Part shown: in pieces, positions 2,698-18,204 of the stretch
How positions within the stretch are numbered: the first letter of the stretch is position 1
How the letters are laid out: the number at the start of each line of letters is the position of its first letter
Virus record (IMG/VR): IMGVR_UViG_3300032315_000162
Coordinates: 1 to 32,779 of that record
Strand: one strand, 5' to 3'
DNA from: a virus
Length of the DNA: 32,779 bases
Translations under genes and position numbers: made by a program
Notes under the pieces: generated by a model
What the model was told of the DNA's origin: nothing
The model's input: only the letters and a program-made list of their open reading frames with translations
Databases searched by the model: none

Positions 2698-3351
2698 TTA
2701 TTCCTCTAGCTGCTCAAAATCTTTCCAACCGTACTCGTAAGTGCCGATGTGCCGGATGTGCATCGATAGTTCATGGTCTACATACGTCTGGAAGCCCTCA
2801 GAACCAGCCTTAACGCAGAAGTACACATCCTCGCCACATACCCCGTTAGAACCCCATCCAGCATCAAACCAAGGTCTTCCGGTCTTCTCAAACACTTCTC
2901 TACGGATCATTACAGCACCAAACCCAACCGCTGTAACTTCCTCAATTCCCTCTTTGCCGCGAGAGTCAATATTCGACCACTTACGAACCTCTGTATCACC
3001 TTCCATATACCTTGTGAGTATCTTGGCGGTAGGAGTTACAGGCTTCCTTCTAGTCGTTGCATTTACACCAACAATCGGCACATCTCGACTTAACAATATG
3101 TCAATGATGTCAGGTGGGAACCGCATATCGCTATCAATAAACAATAGCGCGTCACATCCTTCACCTAATGCCACTTCTGCCAACTTCTCACGCTGGTCAA
3201 ATATCAGCGTTCCTGGCATTGTGTAAAGGCTTAATCCACCTTTACCATCTTTGCAACGTACTGACGCATCATGCGCTGTCATTCGAGCAAAGTCAAAAGC
3301 AAAACCAGTATGCACCTCATCCCGGCATGGGACGCAAACACCAACTCTCAT
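2698..3351 (-). CDS. Glycosyltransferase-like protein (GT-A fold) within the structural operon
   Basis: 217 residues. The start (MRVGVCVPCRDEVHTGFAFD) and the DALLFIDSDMRFPPD segment, with a DSD at residues 73-75, are those of a GT-A glycosyltransferase using a nucleotide-sugar and a divalent metal. Later GVNATTRRKP and a C-terminal GEDVYFCVKAGSEGF ... HIRHIG region match small phage-borne members. ATGA overlap with the upstream 100-residue gene couples them. It is separated from the two other glycosyltransferases (10359-11599) by the whole head block. Substrate is unknown: virion protein decoration or host surface-polysaccharide change are both possible. The family call is firm; the biological target is inference. 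Confidence 0.8.
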   Translation of the reverse strand: MRVGVCVPCRDEVHTGFAFDFARMTAHDASVRCKDGKGGLSLYTMPGTLIFDQREKLAEVALGEGCDALLFIDSDMRFPPDIIDILLSRDVPIVGVNATTRRKPVTPTAKILTRYMEGDTEVRKWSNIDSRGKEGIEEVTAVGFGAVMIRREVFEKTGRPWFDAGWGSNGVCGEDVYFCVKAGSEGFQTYVDHELSMHIRHIGTYEYGWKDFEQLEE

Positions 3352-14133: not shown

Positions 14134-14341
14134 GCCAATCCCCTTTCTCGCCTCGGTTCCCACGTTCCCACTGAGTCCGGCAATCTTTCTCTAACCTATC
14201 CGCAGCTTTATCGCCTCGCTTCTGCCTGACCAAAGATAGATAGCTCATTGCCTTACCCCTGTCCTCTACTCTCCAGAGTAAAACTTGTCGGACTTCACAA
14301 CGATGCCTATGCTCTAAAACTTCCTCGGTTGTCAAAGTCAA
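14123..14341 (-). CDS. 72-residue small phage protein
   Basis: The sequence starts MTLTTEEVLEHRHRCEVRQV, followed by YLSLVRQKRGDKAADRLEKD and a WERGNRGEKGDWRGL ending. This EHRHRCEVR ... WERGNRGEKGDWR pattern recurs in small proteins of phages infecting Burkholderia-like and other Gram-negative hosts (possibly the DUF7696 group; name not certain). It overlaps the helicase gene by 35 bases and the nuclease gene by 11. Highly charged, helical, function unknown. Confidence 0.7.
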   Translation of the reverse strand: MTLTTEEVLEHRHRCEVRQVLLWRVEDRGKAMSYLSLVRQKRGDKAADRLEKDCRTQWERGNRGEKGDWRGL

Positions 14342-15305
14342 TTCTTGCCCCTATCCTCTCCACAAACTGCTGGCTTAGACTGTCGTACCAAAGTCCGTAC
14401 CACTCCTGACAATCCCCGTTCCGCTGCTTCTCGCACATTAGGTAGGTATCCGGCTGAGTCTCGTCTATCTGCTCACCCCTGTTCTTAGCGTTTTCTTTCT
14501 TCTTGTTGCGCCACACCAAAAAGACGTTATCCACCTGATCCGAGATAGAACCCGATCCTTTTAGGTCGTTCTTGTTGGGCTGCGTCTCGTCCGTCTGCTG
14601 CTTTCGGATATGGTGGACTAGGTGAACATGAACGTTATGATCTCTCGCTAGTGCAGTTAGTTCGTCAATAAAAGACTTCTGACCGTTGAAGTCATCCTCG
14701 TTCTTAACGCACTTCATTAGGCTGTCGATGATAATGTGCTTAACGCCTAGCTCTGTGGCGCAGTACCTCGACATAGCAATTACCTTCTCCGGCGTAGTAG
14801 TTCCCTGCTGGTCGTAAAGGTACATTTTGTCGGACAAGAACGACTCCATCCGGTCAACCATCTTCGTGATAAATCCTGCCCTATCATGGGTTAGTGGATC
14901 GTCCAGCGATTCACCGGAAAACTGTCTAAGCATCCGTTGTAGCGTCCTTTCTGGCTTCATTTCGAATGACGCTATGCAGACCGATTGACCCTGCTTGACC
15001 AAGTGCAGCGCAATTTGACCAGTGATTAAGGATTTACCACCACCGTTAGAACCAGCGTAAACAGTAACCTCACCCTCACGATAGGCAAAGGAATCATGTG
15101 TCTTCGTCCAGGGCATTACGACTTTTGCCTGTACCGTTGTCGATAGATAAGACTCTTTGACCGACTCCAGCCAATCCTTAGCCTTCCTTACGCGAATCGT
15201 TACATCGTTAGCGTGAAGATACTTTTCTACGTCAATGGCTTCCGATTTGAGGATTCTGGCTTTCCTAGCCTCGTCTAGTTCTATTGCCCGTGATTCAAGA
15301 CTCAT
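14307..15305 (-). CDS. Replicative DNA helicase (SF4 / DnaB-T7 gp4-like RecA core)
   Basis: 332 residues. After a short N-terminal part comes the RecA-like motor: Walker A AGSNGGGKSLITGQ (K91, S92), Walker B HIIIDSLMKCV (D194), VHVHLVHHIRKQ and DLKGSGSISDQVDNVFLVWR, the H3/H4-like segments seen in T7 gp4 and Twinkle-type helicases. There is no TOPRIM domain and no zinc finger in this chain, so it is a helicase without primase activity. It overlaps the preceding gene by 11 bases. With the stand-alone primase zinc domain (15603-16031) and the initiator (16869-17474) it forms the phage replication set. It would unwind DNA as a hexamer at the fork. Confidence 0.88.
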   Translation of the reverse strand: MSLESRAIELDEARKARILKSEAIDVEKYLHANDVTIRVRKAKDWLESVKESYLSTTVQAKVVMPWTKTHDSFAYREGEVTVYAGSNGGGKSLITGQIALHLVKQGQSVCIASFEMKPERTLQRMLRQFSGESLDDPLTHDRAGFITKMVDRMESFLSDKMYLYDQQGTTTPEKVIAMSRYCATELGVKHIIIDSLMKCVKNEDDFNGQKSFIDELTALARDHNVHVHLVHHIRKQQTDETQPNKNDLKGSGSISDQVDNVFLVWRNKKKENAKNRGEQIDETQPDTYLMCEKQRNGDCQEWYGLWYDSLSQQFVERIGARIDFDNRGSFRA

Positions 15306-15602: not shown

Positions 15603-16031
15603 CTAGTTAATGTAGCTTACCGCTTCGTTGATTCTGGATAGAGCCGTTTTAAGCCGTTTTCTATCCTCGGCTGATACTTCCCTACCCTCGCTCACGTCAA
15701 ACGCCGCTATCGACGTTACAAGTGCCTCAAATTGGATTATTTTCAGCAGGTCTGTTGCGTAAAACGGTCTGCGTACTGGTTTATTGAAATGTTGTTCCTT
15801 AAGGTAATTGATATTGTTGTCGTTAGGAAATAGGTCTGTCAAGTCCATTCCGACAGCTTCAACGATTTGATGCGCTGAACATCCGGCAAAGCACTTGAGC
15901 AGGATTCGACCGTCATCTGTTTCCGTTATGGCAAGGCTTGGTGATCTGTCAACGTGAGCAGGACAACAAGCTATCCAACGACCTTTAGAGCCTTTGACCT
16001 TTTCGAGTTTGTTTAGCAAGTCTCCAATCAT
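15603..16031 (-). CDS. Stand-alone primase zinc-binding domain protein (CHC2-like)
   Basis: 142 residues from ATG 16031, chosen over an upstream start at 16076 because it follows the previous stop by one base and has a GGAG site. The N-terminal half is a CHC2-like zinc ribbon: RWIACCPAHVDRSPSLAI (C23, H26), LLKCFAGCSAHQIVEA (C47, C51), then LTDLFP, as in DnaG and T7 gp4 zinc domains that read the primer start site. The C-terminal half is helical and has no TOPRIM or polymerase motif. So it may guide the host primase or another protein rather than make primers itself. Neighbours are the initiator, the PAPS-reductase-like gene and the helicase. Confidence 0.82.
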   Translation of the reverse strand: MIGDLLNKLEKVKGSKGRWIACCPAHVDRSPSLAITETDDGRILLKCFAGCSAHQIVEAVGMDLTDLFPNDNNINYLKEQHFNKPVRRPFYATDLLKIIQFEALVTSIAAFDVSEGREVSAEDRKRLKTALSRINEAVSYIN

Positions 16032-16032
16032 C

Positions 16033-16872
16033 TTAGTCTCCACAAAAGCAAGAAATGGCTTCTTCATCCATTCCAAACATATCTATTTGTTCGTTAGCAA
16101 ATTTATATATTTCTGCATAACTTGGACGATCCTTCCTAAACCTCGCTCCATCGCCAAACTTTTTATTGCTTGATTGAGCGTGTTTTTCCATTTCCATCCA
16201 CCAGATAGCTCGTTCAGGCTTTTCTTTTACTAAGCTCAAAATTTGATGCGCTGGCTTTAGGAAACATAAATCACAGTTCCCGTGCATGGTTACGCCATTC
16301 ATGTTTGGCAAACCTAAGTCAAACGATTGATTTGACCAAAAATCAAATATTGTTTTCTTAGTAACTCCAGCAGATACCAACGGTAAGCGGCTTATGTCCA
16401 TCTTTGCAGCCCGTCTAGGCTCATCAGCCCTTATTCCAACCCAATCCGAGTTTTCCTTATGCTCTATCCCGAGAGACTTCATGTATTGGTGAATTACACC
16501 AATTTTTAATTTAGCCGTACAAATTCGAGCAACAGGATTAGGAAGGTATGGACTTCCATTTTGGTCAATCAACTGAAAAAACGGTTCGCCATTCCTAGAA
16601 GCCGTTTCAAAAGTCACGCGCCTAAACCTCTTAGAAGTTTCTGCGTGATACTGATATTCCAGCCAATGAATTTCTACGCCCCACTCTTTACTGCACTGAT
16701 CCACAAATCTCAAGGTCGCTTCTTCCTCCTTCCCAGTATTGGCAAAACATACGATTGCCTCGTCAGGAAGCCCTTTATTGGCTTGTAAAACCCGCCACAA
16801 TAGGTAGGCAGACGTTCTGCCACCTGAGAAACTTATGACCGTAGGCTCGTCAATTAGAAATGGGTTTCTCAT
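16033..16872 (-). CDS. PAPS reductase / PP-loop ATP-pyrophosphatase family protein
   Basis: 279 residues. The PP-loop is at TVISFSGGRTSAYLL (S16-S21). Further family features are IVCFANTGKEEEATLRF, PNPVARICTAKLKIG (C118) and WVGIRADEPRR. Cysteines C200-x2-C203 (HGNCDLCFLKP) and C275-x-C277 at the very end (SCFCGD) together with C118 may hold an Fe-S cluster, as in DndC-like members. In phages these proteins are either sulfate-assimilation relatives (CysH-like) or nucleic-acid-modifying enzymes. The position between the initiator and the primase-like gene (ATGA coupling at the start) favours a DNA- or nucleotide-linked role, but this is inference; no other Dnd or Ssp protein is visible. Confidence 0.82.
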   Translation of the reverse strand: MRNPFLIDEPTVISFSGGRTSAYLLWRVLQANKGLPDEAIVCFANTGKEEEATLRFVDQCSKEWGVEIHWLEYQYHAETSKRFRRVTFETASRNGEPFFQLIDQNGSPYLPNPVARICTAKLKIGVIHQYMKSLGIEHKENSDWVGIRADEPRRAAKMDISRLPLVSAGVTKKTIFDFWSNQSFDLGLPNMNGVTMHGNCDLCFLKPAHQILSLVKEKPERAIWWMEMEKHAQSSNKKFGDGARFRKDRPSYAEIYKFANEQIDMFGMDEEAISCFCGD

Positions 16873-17474
16873 AGAACTCGTCTCCCAATAGAATTTTGTT
16901 GAGTCTGGACTTTAGGTTCGTAAACATCTATCCAATCGCTAACGATGCTCTTTTGCAATACCGCTGACGTATCGATACCCTTATTCTTCATTTTTTCCAA
17001 TTTAGAAATCATTAAATTAACGGCTCGATCTGTCATCGGCTTCTTTAACTTTTTCCGCATTTCAACAAAGTCGTTCCAATCAGTTTTATTTAACCAATCA
17101 GGAAGATCTAACGAAACAGACTTCTTCTCTGTCTCTTTCTCTGTCTCTCTCTCTGGGATAGCAAGTTGCAAGCAAGGTGCTAGCATAGTGCTAGCATCAA
17201 CAAAAAAGCCATTATCTATCAATGGCTTAAGTCCTAACTCTATATCCTTGCTAGCAATACGCAAGCGAAATGCTAGTTCTTCGCTAGCAGCATTAAAACT
17301 ACCGTCTTTTGACTCACTTGCTAGCAACCAAAGTAAAGGTGCTATCGCCTTGCTAGCAATCGGTAGGTTCATGTATGCCCTATCGTTAAGCAAGTCTCGA
17401 TGCAGCTTGATCCAAGGTGGACACCGATCCCGATAGTGCTGGAACTTTTCCCAGTTTTTAGGCTTGAGGAGCAT
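16869..17474 (-). CDS. Replication initiator / helicase-loader-like protein (lambda O-like role)
   Basis: 201 residues from ATG 17474, which has GGAGG seven bases upstream; a longer frame to 17528 lacks such a site and overlaps the previous gene more. The N-terminal domain (CPPWIKLHRDLLNDRAYMNL onward through LAFRLRIASKDIELGLKPLI) is the winged-helix layout seen in phage and plasmid replication proteins. A Glu/Lys-rich linker (PERETEKETEKK) leads to a C-terminal helical domain (NDFVEMRKKLKKPMTDRAVN ... SDWIDVYEPK) like those of helicase-loading DnaT/DnaD-type proteins. An iteron array lies inside the coding sequence (17157-17359), as lambda ori lies inside gene O. Interaction with the helicase is inferred. 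Confidence 0.75.
   Translation of the reverse strand: MLLKPKNWEKFQHYRDRCPPWIKLHRDLLNDRAYMNLPIASKAIAPLLWLLASESKDGSFNAASEELAFRLRIASKDIELGLKPLIDNGFFVDASTMLAPCLQLAIPERETEKETEKKSVSLDLPDWLNKTDWNDFVEMRKKLKKPMTDRAVNLMISKLEKMKNKGIDTSAVLQKSIVSDWIDVYEPKVQTQQNSIGRRVL
17157..17359. other. Candidate replication origin: GCTAGC iterons inside the initiator gene
   Basis: The palindrome TTGCTAGCAA occurs exactly at 17248-17257, 17318-17327 and 17350-17359. GCTAGC cores also occur at 17179, 17190 and 17283, with one-mismatch forms at 17157, 17168, 17261, 17272 and 17341. Within two clusters the cores are spaced exactly 11 bases (17157/17168/17179/17190 and 17250/17261/17272/17283). Eleven is not a multiple of three, and the core is read in at least two phases (Ala-Ser and x-Leu-Ala), so amino-acid repetition does not explain it. 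A polypyrimidine tract (17121-17154) borders the array. The arrangement recalls lambda ori, where O-protein iterons lie within O. Confidence 0.72.
17206..17228. repeat. Inverted repeat between the two iteron clusters
   Basis: AAGCCATT (17206-17213) and AATGGCTT (17221-17228) are perfect reverse complements around the 7-base loop ATCTATC. The dyad stands in the AT-rich gap (about 17197-17247) separating the two 11-base-spaced iteron clusters. It may extrude, mark the melting region or act as a primer start site; it could also be a chance dyad inside coding DNA. Confidence 0.55.
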
Positions 17475-17676
17475 ATTTTTCCTCCATACCGCCAGCCCAT
17501 AAATTTTCCATTTCTTCATGGAAATCATTGACCACCATTTTTATTTCTTTAGCTTGATCTGGAGTCAAAACTATTGACACTTCCTGCCCATGAATTGATG
17601 AGTTTTGCTTTAGAACAAGGCAACCTACGTCACTAATGTATGCCTCTAAATCATCTGTTGCTCTAAATTTCAACAT
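17458..17676 (-). CDS. First gene of the leftward operon, 72-residue hypothetical protein
   Basis: I take the ATG at 17676 as start; an in-frame TTG at 17688 sits too close to the terminator-like leader. The protein begins MLKFRATDDLEAYISDVGCL, has VSIVLTPDQAKEIKMVVNDF and ends acidic. It looks like a small alpha/beta protein with no known family. The last 17 bases overlap the start of the initiator gene, and its 3' end carries the initiator's GGAGG site, so initiator translation is probably coupled to it. Expression would depend on read-through of the structured leader that ends about 14 bases before the ATG. Confidence 0.68.
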   Translation of the reverse strand: MLKFRATDDLEAYISDVGCLVLKQNSSIHGQEVSIVLTPDQAKEIKMVVNDFHEEMENLWAGGMEEKYAPQA

Positions 17677-17976: not shown

Positions 17977-18073
17977 TGGTCTGCCCTCTAGGTGTTGTTT
18001 TTCTAACTTCCGGCTGCTTATCCGGCTTAGTCTTAGTTTCTTGCAATTGTTTTAAGTATTTTTCGTATTTCAT
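17915..18073 (-). CDS. Basic 52-residue protein, possible
   Basis: ATG at 18073, TAA at 17915-17917. The product (starting MKYEKYLKQLQETKTKPDKQ, later TTPRGQTIERRTFKI) is very basic, as expected of a nucleic-acid-binding early protein. It overlaps the 58-residue zinc-ribbon frame by 62 bases in another frame, so one of the two may be non-coding or this ORF may serve mainly to translate into the ribbon gene. The ribosome site is weak (CTGAGATA). Together these two frames account for most of the otherwise empty stretch 17.80-18.07 kb. Confidence 0.45.
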   Translation of the reverse strand: MKYEKYLKQLQETKTKPDKQPEVRKTTPRGQTIERRTFKILSSNVKRQNWND

Positions 18074-18085
18074 TATCTCAGAATG

Positions 18086-18144
18086 TTGACGTTTGGTAAT
18101 AGAATGTTTCTATAGGTTTACATTTACTAATAGAAATATATTTG
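18086..18144 (+). promoter_or_regulatory. Divergent early control region: candidate promoter with operator-like repeats
   Basis: On the plus strand TTGACG (18086-18091) is followed by TATAGG (18111-18116, spacing 19) or TCTATA (18109-18114, spacing 17), an imperfect sigma-70 promoter for the plus operon starting at 18205. TAATAGAA occurs twice (18097-18104 and 18128-18135), and TTTCTATA lies between them in the opposite sense. The segment 18123-18144 matches the minus strand of 13834-13813 at 19 of 22 bases. These look like operators for a phage repressor or Cro-like protein; the HTH protein at 19913 is the obvious candidate. The remainder to 18204 is AT-rich, with an AGGGG ribosome site before the first gene. 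Confidence 0.55.
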
Positions 18145-18204
18145 CACTAACCTGTTAATCTGTGGCACTATTTCGAAGCGGTAACTCACTAGGGGATAAA
18201 TATT

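Follow-up and report, generated by a model that had tools for sequence, protein, structure and literature searches.

Within the window analysed here (the whole of viral record IMGVR_UViG_3300032315_000162, 32,779 nucleotides), we identified an array of short palindromic sites inside the gene of a putative replication initiator, which we read, with a probability of roughly 0.86, as the initiator-binding part of the replication origin of this freshwater-type phage. Sequence comparisons show that selection at the DNA level holds both the phased palindromic sites and an adjoining purine tract, the conserved core being the block of sites next to that tract. An origin inside the phage's own initiator gene had been proposed in an earlier sequence-only reading, and this proposal gains support from an array that is unique, kept with the N-terminal domain of the initiator and lost where that domain is swapped.

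The initiator gene and its iteron array

The initiator gene (16869..17528, minus strand) is a 219-codon open reading frame matching two PHROG families: phrog_26426 ('replication protein') over residues 19-135 (1.2e-31), also matched by 72/72 relatives, and phrog_678 ('replication initiation O-like') over residues 126-213 (1.2e-21). On the basis of these matches we classify its product as an O-like/DnaD-like replication protein. Relatives with 95% identity align from residue 1 (L005) or 19 (L006), and because relatives begin at Met19, translation probably starts from the ATG at 17474-17472. The putative N-terminal DNA-binding-type domain (17190..17468, minus strand; residues 21-113) is modelled by AlphaFold2 (pLDDT 89.5) as entirely helical, with a tail that is poorly ordered, and shows a match to the DnaD-like phrog_186 in 44/72 members and a weak match to Pfam DnaD_N in 12/72. 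It includes Tyr32 of an FQHY motif (codon 17433..17435, minus strand), whose column distinguishes the two iteron classes described below. The C-terminal O-like domain (16890..17126, minus strand; residues 135-213; phrog_678), which presumably recruits helicase, is common to the natural chimeras. In a full-length AlphaFold model (pTM 0.49), a disordered linker (residues about 112-146) joins the helical N-domain to a C-domain that is small and likewise helical. While the PHROG matches bear out the initiator-like character first ascribed to this protein, the winged-helix fold proposed with it is weakly supported; such a fold is no more than likely for the modelled N-domain, since no significant match to solved structures was obtained, the structural models giving no fold match in the PDB below E=0.7 and no sequence relative with a solved structure being convincing.

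Downstream of the initiator, on the same strand, are genes for a PAPS-reductase-like protein, a CHC2-type zinc-ribbon primase fragment or primase-like protein (15603..16076, minus strand; PF01807 at 5.7e-5, slightly under the cut-off; phrog_6088 DNA primase, 3.9e-16) and a phage DnaB-like helicase (14307..15305, minus strand; PF03796 DnaB_C, 2.2e-21; phrog_239/19), the last being the likely loading target of the initiator. The gene on the opposite side, Erf, is divergently oriented. The PAPS-reductase-like gene (16033-16872), placed between the initiator and primase-like genes, looks like a variable insertion, since it is present in L005/L006 (61-69%) and was not found at that place in L007, L008, L009 and others.

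Eleven plus-strand sites matching GCTAGC with at most one mismatch were identified within 17157-17357, in agreement with the three exact copies of TTGCTAGCAA (starting at 17248, 17318 and 17350) and eight further sites originally noticed. These are organized in three clusters. Cluster A (17157..17195; units 17157 GATAGC, 17168 GCAAGC, 17179 GCTAGC and 17190 GCTAGC, in 11-bp steps) adjoins the purine tract and forms the core array, its position and spacing being kept in relatives. Cluster B (17250..17288; units at 17250, 17261, 17272 and 17283, also in 11-bp steps) is retained in near relatives and variable in more distant ones. To these two clusters, whose exact 11-base spacing had been recognized previously and is confirmed here, we add cluster C (17320..17357; units at 17320, 17341 and 17352, in steps of 21 and 11 bp), which is partly kept in most relatives.

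In the genome-wide count suggested earlier as a test of enrichment, exact GCTAGC occurs 8 times in the window against 10.2 expected, with 6 of the 8 falling inside the array (180 bp); as the total is not unusual, the signal of the array lies in its clustering and phasing. The densest other 200-bp stretch of the window holds 6 sites (at most one mismatch) compared with 10 at the array, and a scan of the whole 32.8-kb window with 64 palindromic hexamers, again allowing one mismatch, recovered runs of three or more at 11 bp in clusters A and B only. An equal density of sites elsewhere, which had been named as refuting the proposal, is not borne out by whole records of 16 related phages either: the 17-bp tandem core (a pair of units) is restricted to the initiator gene in the 14 records that have it and is absent from 2/16, one of which is the chimera L047. 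GC skew along the window follows gene orientation, with no usable inversion, and is therefore uninformative for the origin.

Directly after the last unit, the coding strand carries a polypurine tract (GAGACAGAGA; 17123..17155, minus strand), corresponding to the polypyrimidine border of the array reported from the other strand, which encodes the charged linker ERETEKETEK; core array and tract together encode predicted-disordered linker (residues about 111-136). A GAGA-type search located the beginning of the tract 3 or 14 (=3+11) bp past the last recognised unit in 128/152 genes. Across relatives the tract averages 53% A and 38% G, and its duplex stability is unexceptional. Clusters A and B are separated by an A+T-rich spacer (17196..17249; 54 bp, 69% A+T) containing an 8-bp dyad (17206-17228), both of them features that had been noted before. 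The 60-bp interval at 17190 ranks in the 96th percentile for low duplex stability, and the spacer is a possible melting site.

Relatives, core spellings and exchanged domains

A first scan of viral contigs yielded 80 relatives of the initiator. In a blind spacing test of 144 unique N-domain relatives, covering all 64 palindromic hexamers at spacings of 7-24, the best spacing was 11 bp in 132/144, as the proposed conservation of spacing predicts, and the best motif was almost always GCTAGC or GATATC. In-phase steps between units equalled 11 bp in 307/316 cases. A protein conserved without its iterons had been named as the case that would speak against an origin; relatives keeping the N-domain were found to keep the array, in 152/165 unique N-domains. 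The array was not seen in the other 13/165, some of which have an HNH insertion or truncated sequence there. An HNH endonuclease domain inserted at the linker/array position was observed in the initiators of L075, L076, L277, L280 and L281, where the array is absent; the insertion corresponds to PF01844 in L075 and starts similarly in L277/L280/L281. Iodobacter phage PhiPLPE, an isolated relative, has the array. Limnohabitans phage DC33 (L089, PQ492659.1), a 39-kb circular record with a tailed-phage-like gene layout, bears Inoviridae in its GenBank taxonomy line.

Two spellings of the core were identified, GCTAGC in 71/71 array-bearing FQHY-type relatives and GATATC in 81/81 array-bearing FQHF-type relatives, with column 32 (Tyr/Phe) the only N-domain column splitting the two classes without overlap. 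Searching by DNA alone retrieved FQH-type initiator genes of the corresponding type: coding-compatible GCTAGC arrays lay in FQHY genes at 87/98 loci (38 with previously unseen N-domains), and GATATC triple arrays in FQHF genes at no fewer than 63 of 80 examined loci (46 of them with N-domains not met before), the remaining GATATC loci including several truncated or variant genes. No crossover between residue and spelling was found among the 87 Y and 63 F genes from this retrieval. In five F-type phages an upstream GCTAGC cluster is present besides GATATC. GATATC triple arrays were also observed in L384 and L420 within open reading frames unlike FQH-type initiators, that of L384 being followed by a purine tract (23/24 purines). 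Taken together, the sequence associations make Tyr/Phe 32 a strong lead for a specificity determinant of the core spelling, and only a lead, because Tyr/Phe changes number only about four on a tree of 152 relatives, for which a topology with one F clade could not be rejected (p-AU 0.41).

A natural domain exchange was identified in seven relatives (L047, L048, L050, L055, L064, L065 and L070), which share the same C-domain (78-92% identity; 84-92% in all but L055) and possess an unrelated N-domain, corresponding to DUF1376 in the two relatives tested. These phages keep the Erf gene, as well as helicase and primase-like genes at 87-95% where covered. The GCTAGC array is absent from all seven, and from the entire record of L047. 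The loss of the array where the N-domain has been exchanged indicates that the array belongs to the N-domain. Other repeats are carried in its place, those examined also being 11-bp periodic: the DUF1376-type L047, L048, L050, L055 and L064 have repeats of this period (e.g. GTTSAAC), after which comes AACCAATAACCATAAACCAATAACC-type DNA coding for a recurrent peptide, TNNHKPITNN. Phasing at 11 bp was rejected as a rule for all phage initiators, since neither Rac ydaU nor Acinetobacter phage Abp95 shows this periodicity. Rac ydaU (L308:1003-1791) has GTTACGC/GCGTTAC-type repeats followed by GAGGAAGAGGAAGAGGAAG, a layout of iterons plus purine tract without the 11-bp phasing.

These patterns bear on two other functions that the array might serve. 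It could be an operator or roadblock for the initiator or a phage repressor, with the origin elsewhere, e.g. in the AT-rich intergenic DNA near 18.05-18.15 kb. Many phage repressors use palindromic sites, other contigs have intergenic GCTAGC arrays with no FQHY gene nearby, and duplex stability in the window is lowest in intergenic DNA, at 18044-18150, ~700-900 bp from the array. Nevertheless, the sites here lie deep in a reading frame rather than at a promoter, the conserved core adjoins the purine tract in fixed phase, and arrays go with the N-domain and not with neighbouring genes, which together leave this explanation unlikely. Known iteron initiators often autoregulate, and it is possible that the array is both operator and origin. 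Still less probable is a partition, cohesion or packaging site of another protein, present in the initiator gene by chance. Although the binding protein cannot be named from the window alone, arrays are lost exactly where the initiator N-domain is replaced while the helicase, primase-like and Erf genes stay, and the core sequence tracks a residue of the initiator itself.

Selection on the DNA and conflict with the reading frame

The iteron units fall in all three codon phases, and the seven 11-bp pairs observed were reached in 0/20,000 protein-preserving recodings using the codon usage of the window (mean 0.44, max 4) and in 0/20,000 synonymous-codon shufflings inside the gene (mean 0.70, max 5). 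Codon shuffles within the gene for 40 random relatives, a comparison of low power, gave 18/40 with at most 15/300 shuffles reaching the observed count. Among close relatives, codons with their third base in an iteron showed a uniformity of 0.756 against 0.307 expected, while for codons outside iterons the values were 0.572 and 0.412, the excess at iterons being the larger (p=1.3e-6). Moreover, the alanine codon is set by the phase in which an iteron is read, GCT being used in 24/24 cases at one site and GCA, likewise in 24/24, at a second, which excludes an origin of the array in protein sequence or codon usage. Hence, while relatives conserve the repetitive peptide DASTMLAPCLQLA, there is next to no chance that the DNA repeats simply follow from repeated ASxxLA peptides in the protein or from codon bias: the synonymous-site test refutes it, the linker is predicted to be disordered, and F-type relatives have a different core sequence at the same place and spacing. 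The view that protein repetition does not explain the repeats, first drawn from their differing codon phases, is thereby upheld.

The purine tract is also selected as DNA, as its codon biases indicate: GAG accounts for 92% of glutamate codons in the tract compared with 40% elsewhere, and ACA for 100% of threonine codons compared with 39%. An Arg-AGA bias in the tract partly reflects the choice of window, which does not apply to the Glu-GAG and Thr ACA-over-ACG biases.

Closer examination of individual units revealed a conflict between the GCTAGC spelling and the reading frame. GCTAGC includes TAG, and three units at 11 bp place this stop codon in all three frames, so that an open frame through a GCTAGC array requires degenerate units at regular places. 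In the stop-creating frame, 0/56 units are exact, the usual forms being GCTTGC or GCTATC, compared with 53/101 and 60/69 in the other two frames (113/170 together). GATATC arrays, free of any stop constraint, have exact units in every frame (66%, 68% and 89%). Seen from the coding strand, units 17168 and 17261 of the window are GCTTGC and lie precisely in the stop-creating frame, which explains part of the one-mismatch units. Since TAG falls in every frame, searching by DNA alone for three exact GCTAGC units yielded nothing but stretches without an open frame across the array. Such runs of at least three exact GCTAGC at 11 bp were observed in L318/L320/L322/L333 (one sequence), L323, L327, L340, L332, L337 and L342; no FQHY motif was found in the fetched stretch around them, and they are possibly operators or origins of other systems. 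In the FQHY-type L319, the array (2994-3021, reverse strand) has three exact GCTAGC units, the initiator frame ends at a TAG inside it, and one more unit lies past the stop.

More speculatively, Tyr32 or Phe32 alone might set the core as GCTAGC or GATATC, respectively, with the switch to GATATC favoured since it is stop-free and ends the collision between frame and origin. We hold this idea with more doubt than confidence; if true, it would amount to a readable, one-residue origin code moulded by overlap coding.

A proposed mechanism and its relation to known origins

With sites every 11 bp, successive sites lie on one face of the helix. We propose that the N-terminal domain binds each palindromic site, and that initiator copies, their units one turn apart, would stack along that face. 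Strain from this stacking may then open the DNA beside or within the purine tract, or at the A+T-rich spacer, after which the C-terminal O-like domain would load the DnaB-like helicase encoded by the phage itself. Residing on the same DNA, initiator and origin travel together, and exchange of the N-domain is also exchange of the origin.

Several known systems share parts of this arrangement. In lambda and the Stx phages the origin lies inside the initiator gene O, and helicase recruitment follows (PMC7466680). As in lambda ori, the array consists of inverted-repeat iterons in the initiator gene, between the codons of the N- and C-domains, with a purine-rich tract downstream on the coding strand. 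However, lambda iterons are 18-19 bp long in 20-24-bp steps (39034, 39054, 39078, 39101), compared with 6-10-bp palindromes every 11 bp here, and the tract of lambda is AT-rich (AAAAGAAAAAAGAAAAGA), unlike that of the present array. The iterons here also occupy codons of the folded domain, unlike those of lambda. The C-domain matches the O-like phrog_678, but no similarity between the initiator and lambda O itself was detected by BLASTP. A search for a strongly AT-rich unwinding element next to the array turned up only the moderately unstable spacer. The original description of a lambda-like origin holds for layout and logic only, and not for spacing or the unwinding element.

In pSK41-type RepA_N plasmids, an N-terminal DnaD-like domain binds to Rep boxes in the middle of rep; the ori of RepA_N initiators encodes the linker, and C-domains differ between hosts (PMC5703833; PMC7145576). 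The family described here is alike in a central array, presumed to act as origin, that encodes the linker. A DnaD-like N-domain may be shared as well, given the phrog_186 match in 44/72 members, whereas the RepA_N domain itself (PF06970) was not matched in the initiator. SPP1 gp38 binds the direct repeats of oriL within its own gene 38 (PMC6316719), a likeness of layout; SPP1 differs in having an AT-rich unwinding element next to its repeats and in possessing oriR as a second origin. At Vibrio cholerae ori2, six 12-mers bound by RctB are arranged head-to-tail on one helix face, spaced regularly at 10 or 11 bp (PMC6090056). Read as the gap between 12-mers, this spacing gives about two turns per unit, compared with one turn here, and the RctB sites have Dam methylation sites and occupy a separate origin region, while the present array lies inside the initiator gene. 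From sequence features, the family may best be filed as a widespread, one-turn, two-spelling intragenic origin, which resembles lambda O, SPP1 oriL and RepA_N and departs from lambda in spacing and AT-rich element and from RepA_N in domain. No description of GCTAGC iterons or of this initiator family was found in the searched literature, subscription papers lying outside it.

The origins of most environmental phages are unknown, and here they would be readable directly from DNA in hundreds of phages, with the array pattern alone retrieving initiator genes. The family also offers natural experiments: the core is spelled in two ways, domains have been swapped, and arrays are degraded at precisely those units that would otherwise introduce a stop codon. 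With this variation it becomes possible to test how initiator specificity shifts and how an origin survives inside a gene, as well as whether an initiator stacked at one-turn intervals is able to open DNA that lacks an AT-rich element.
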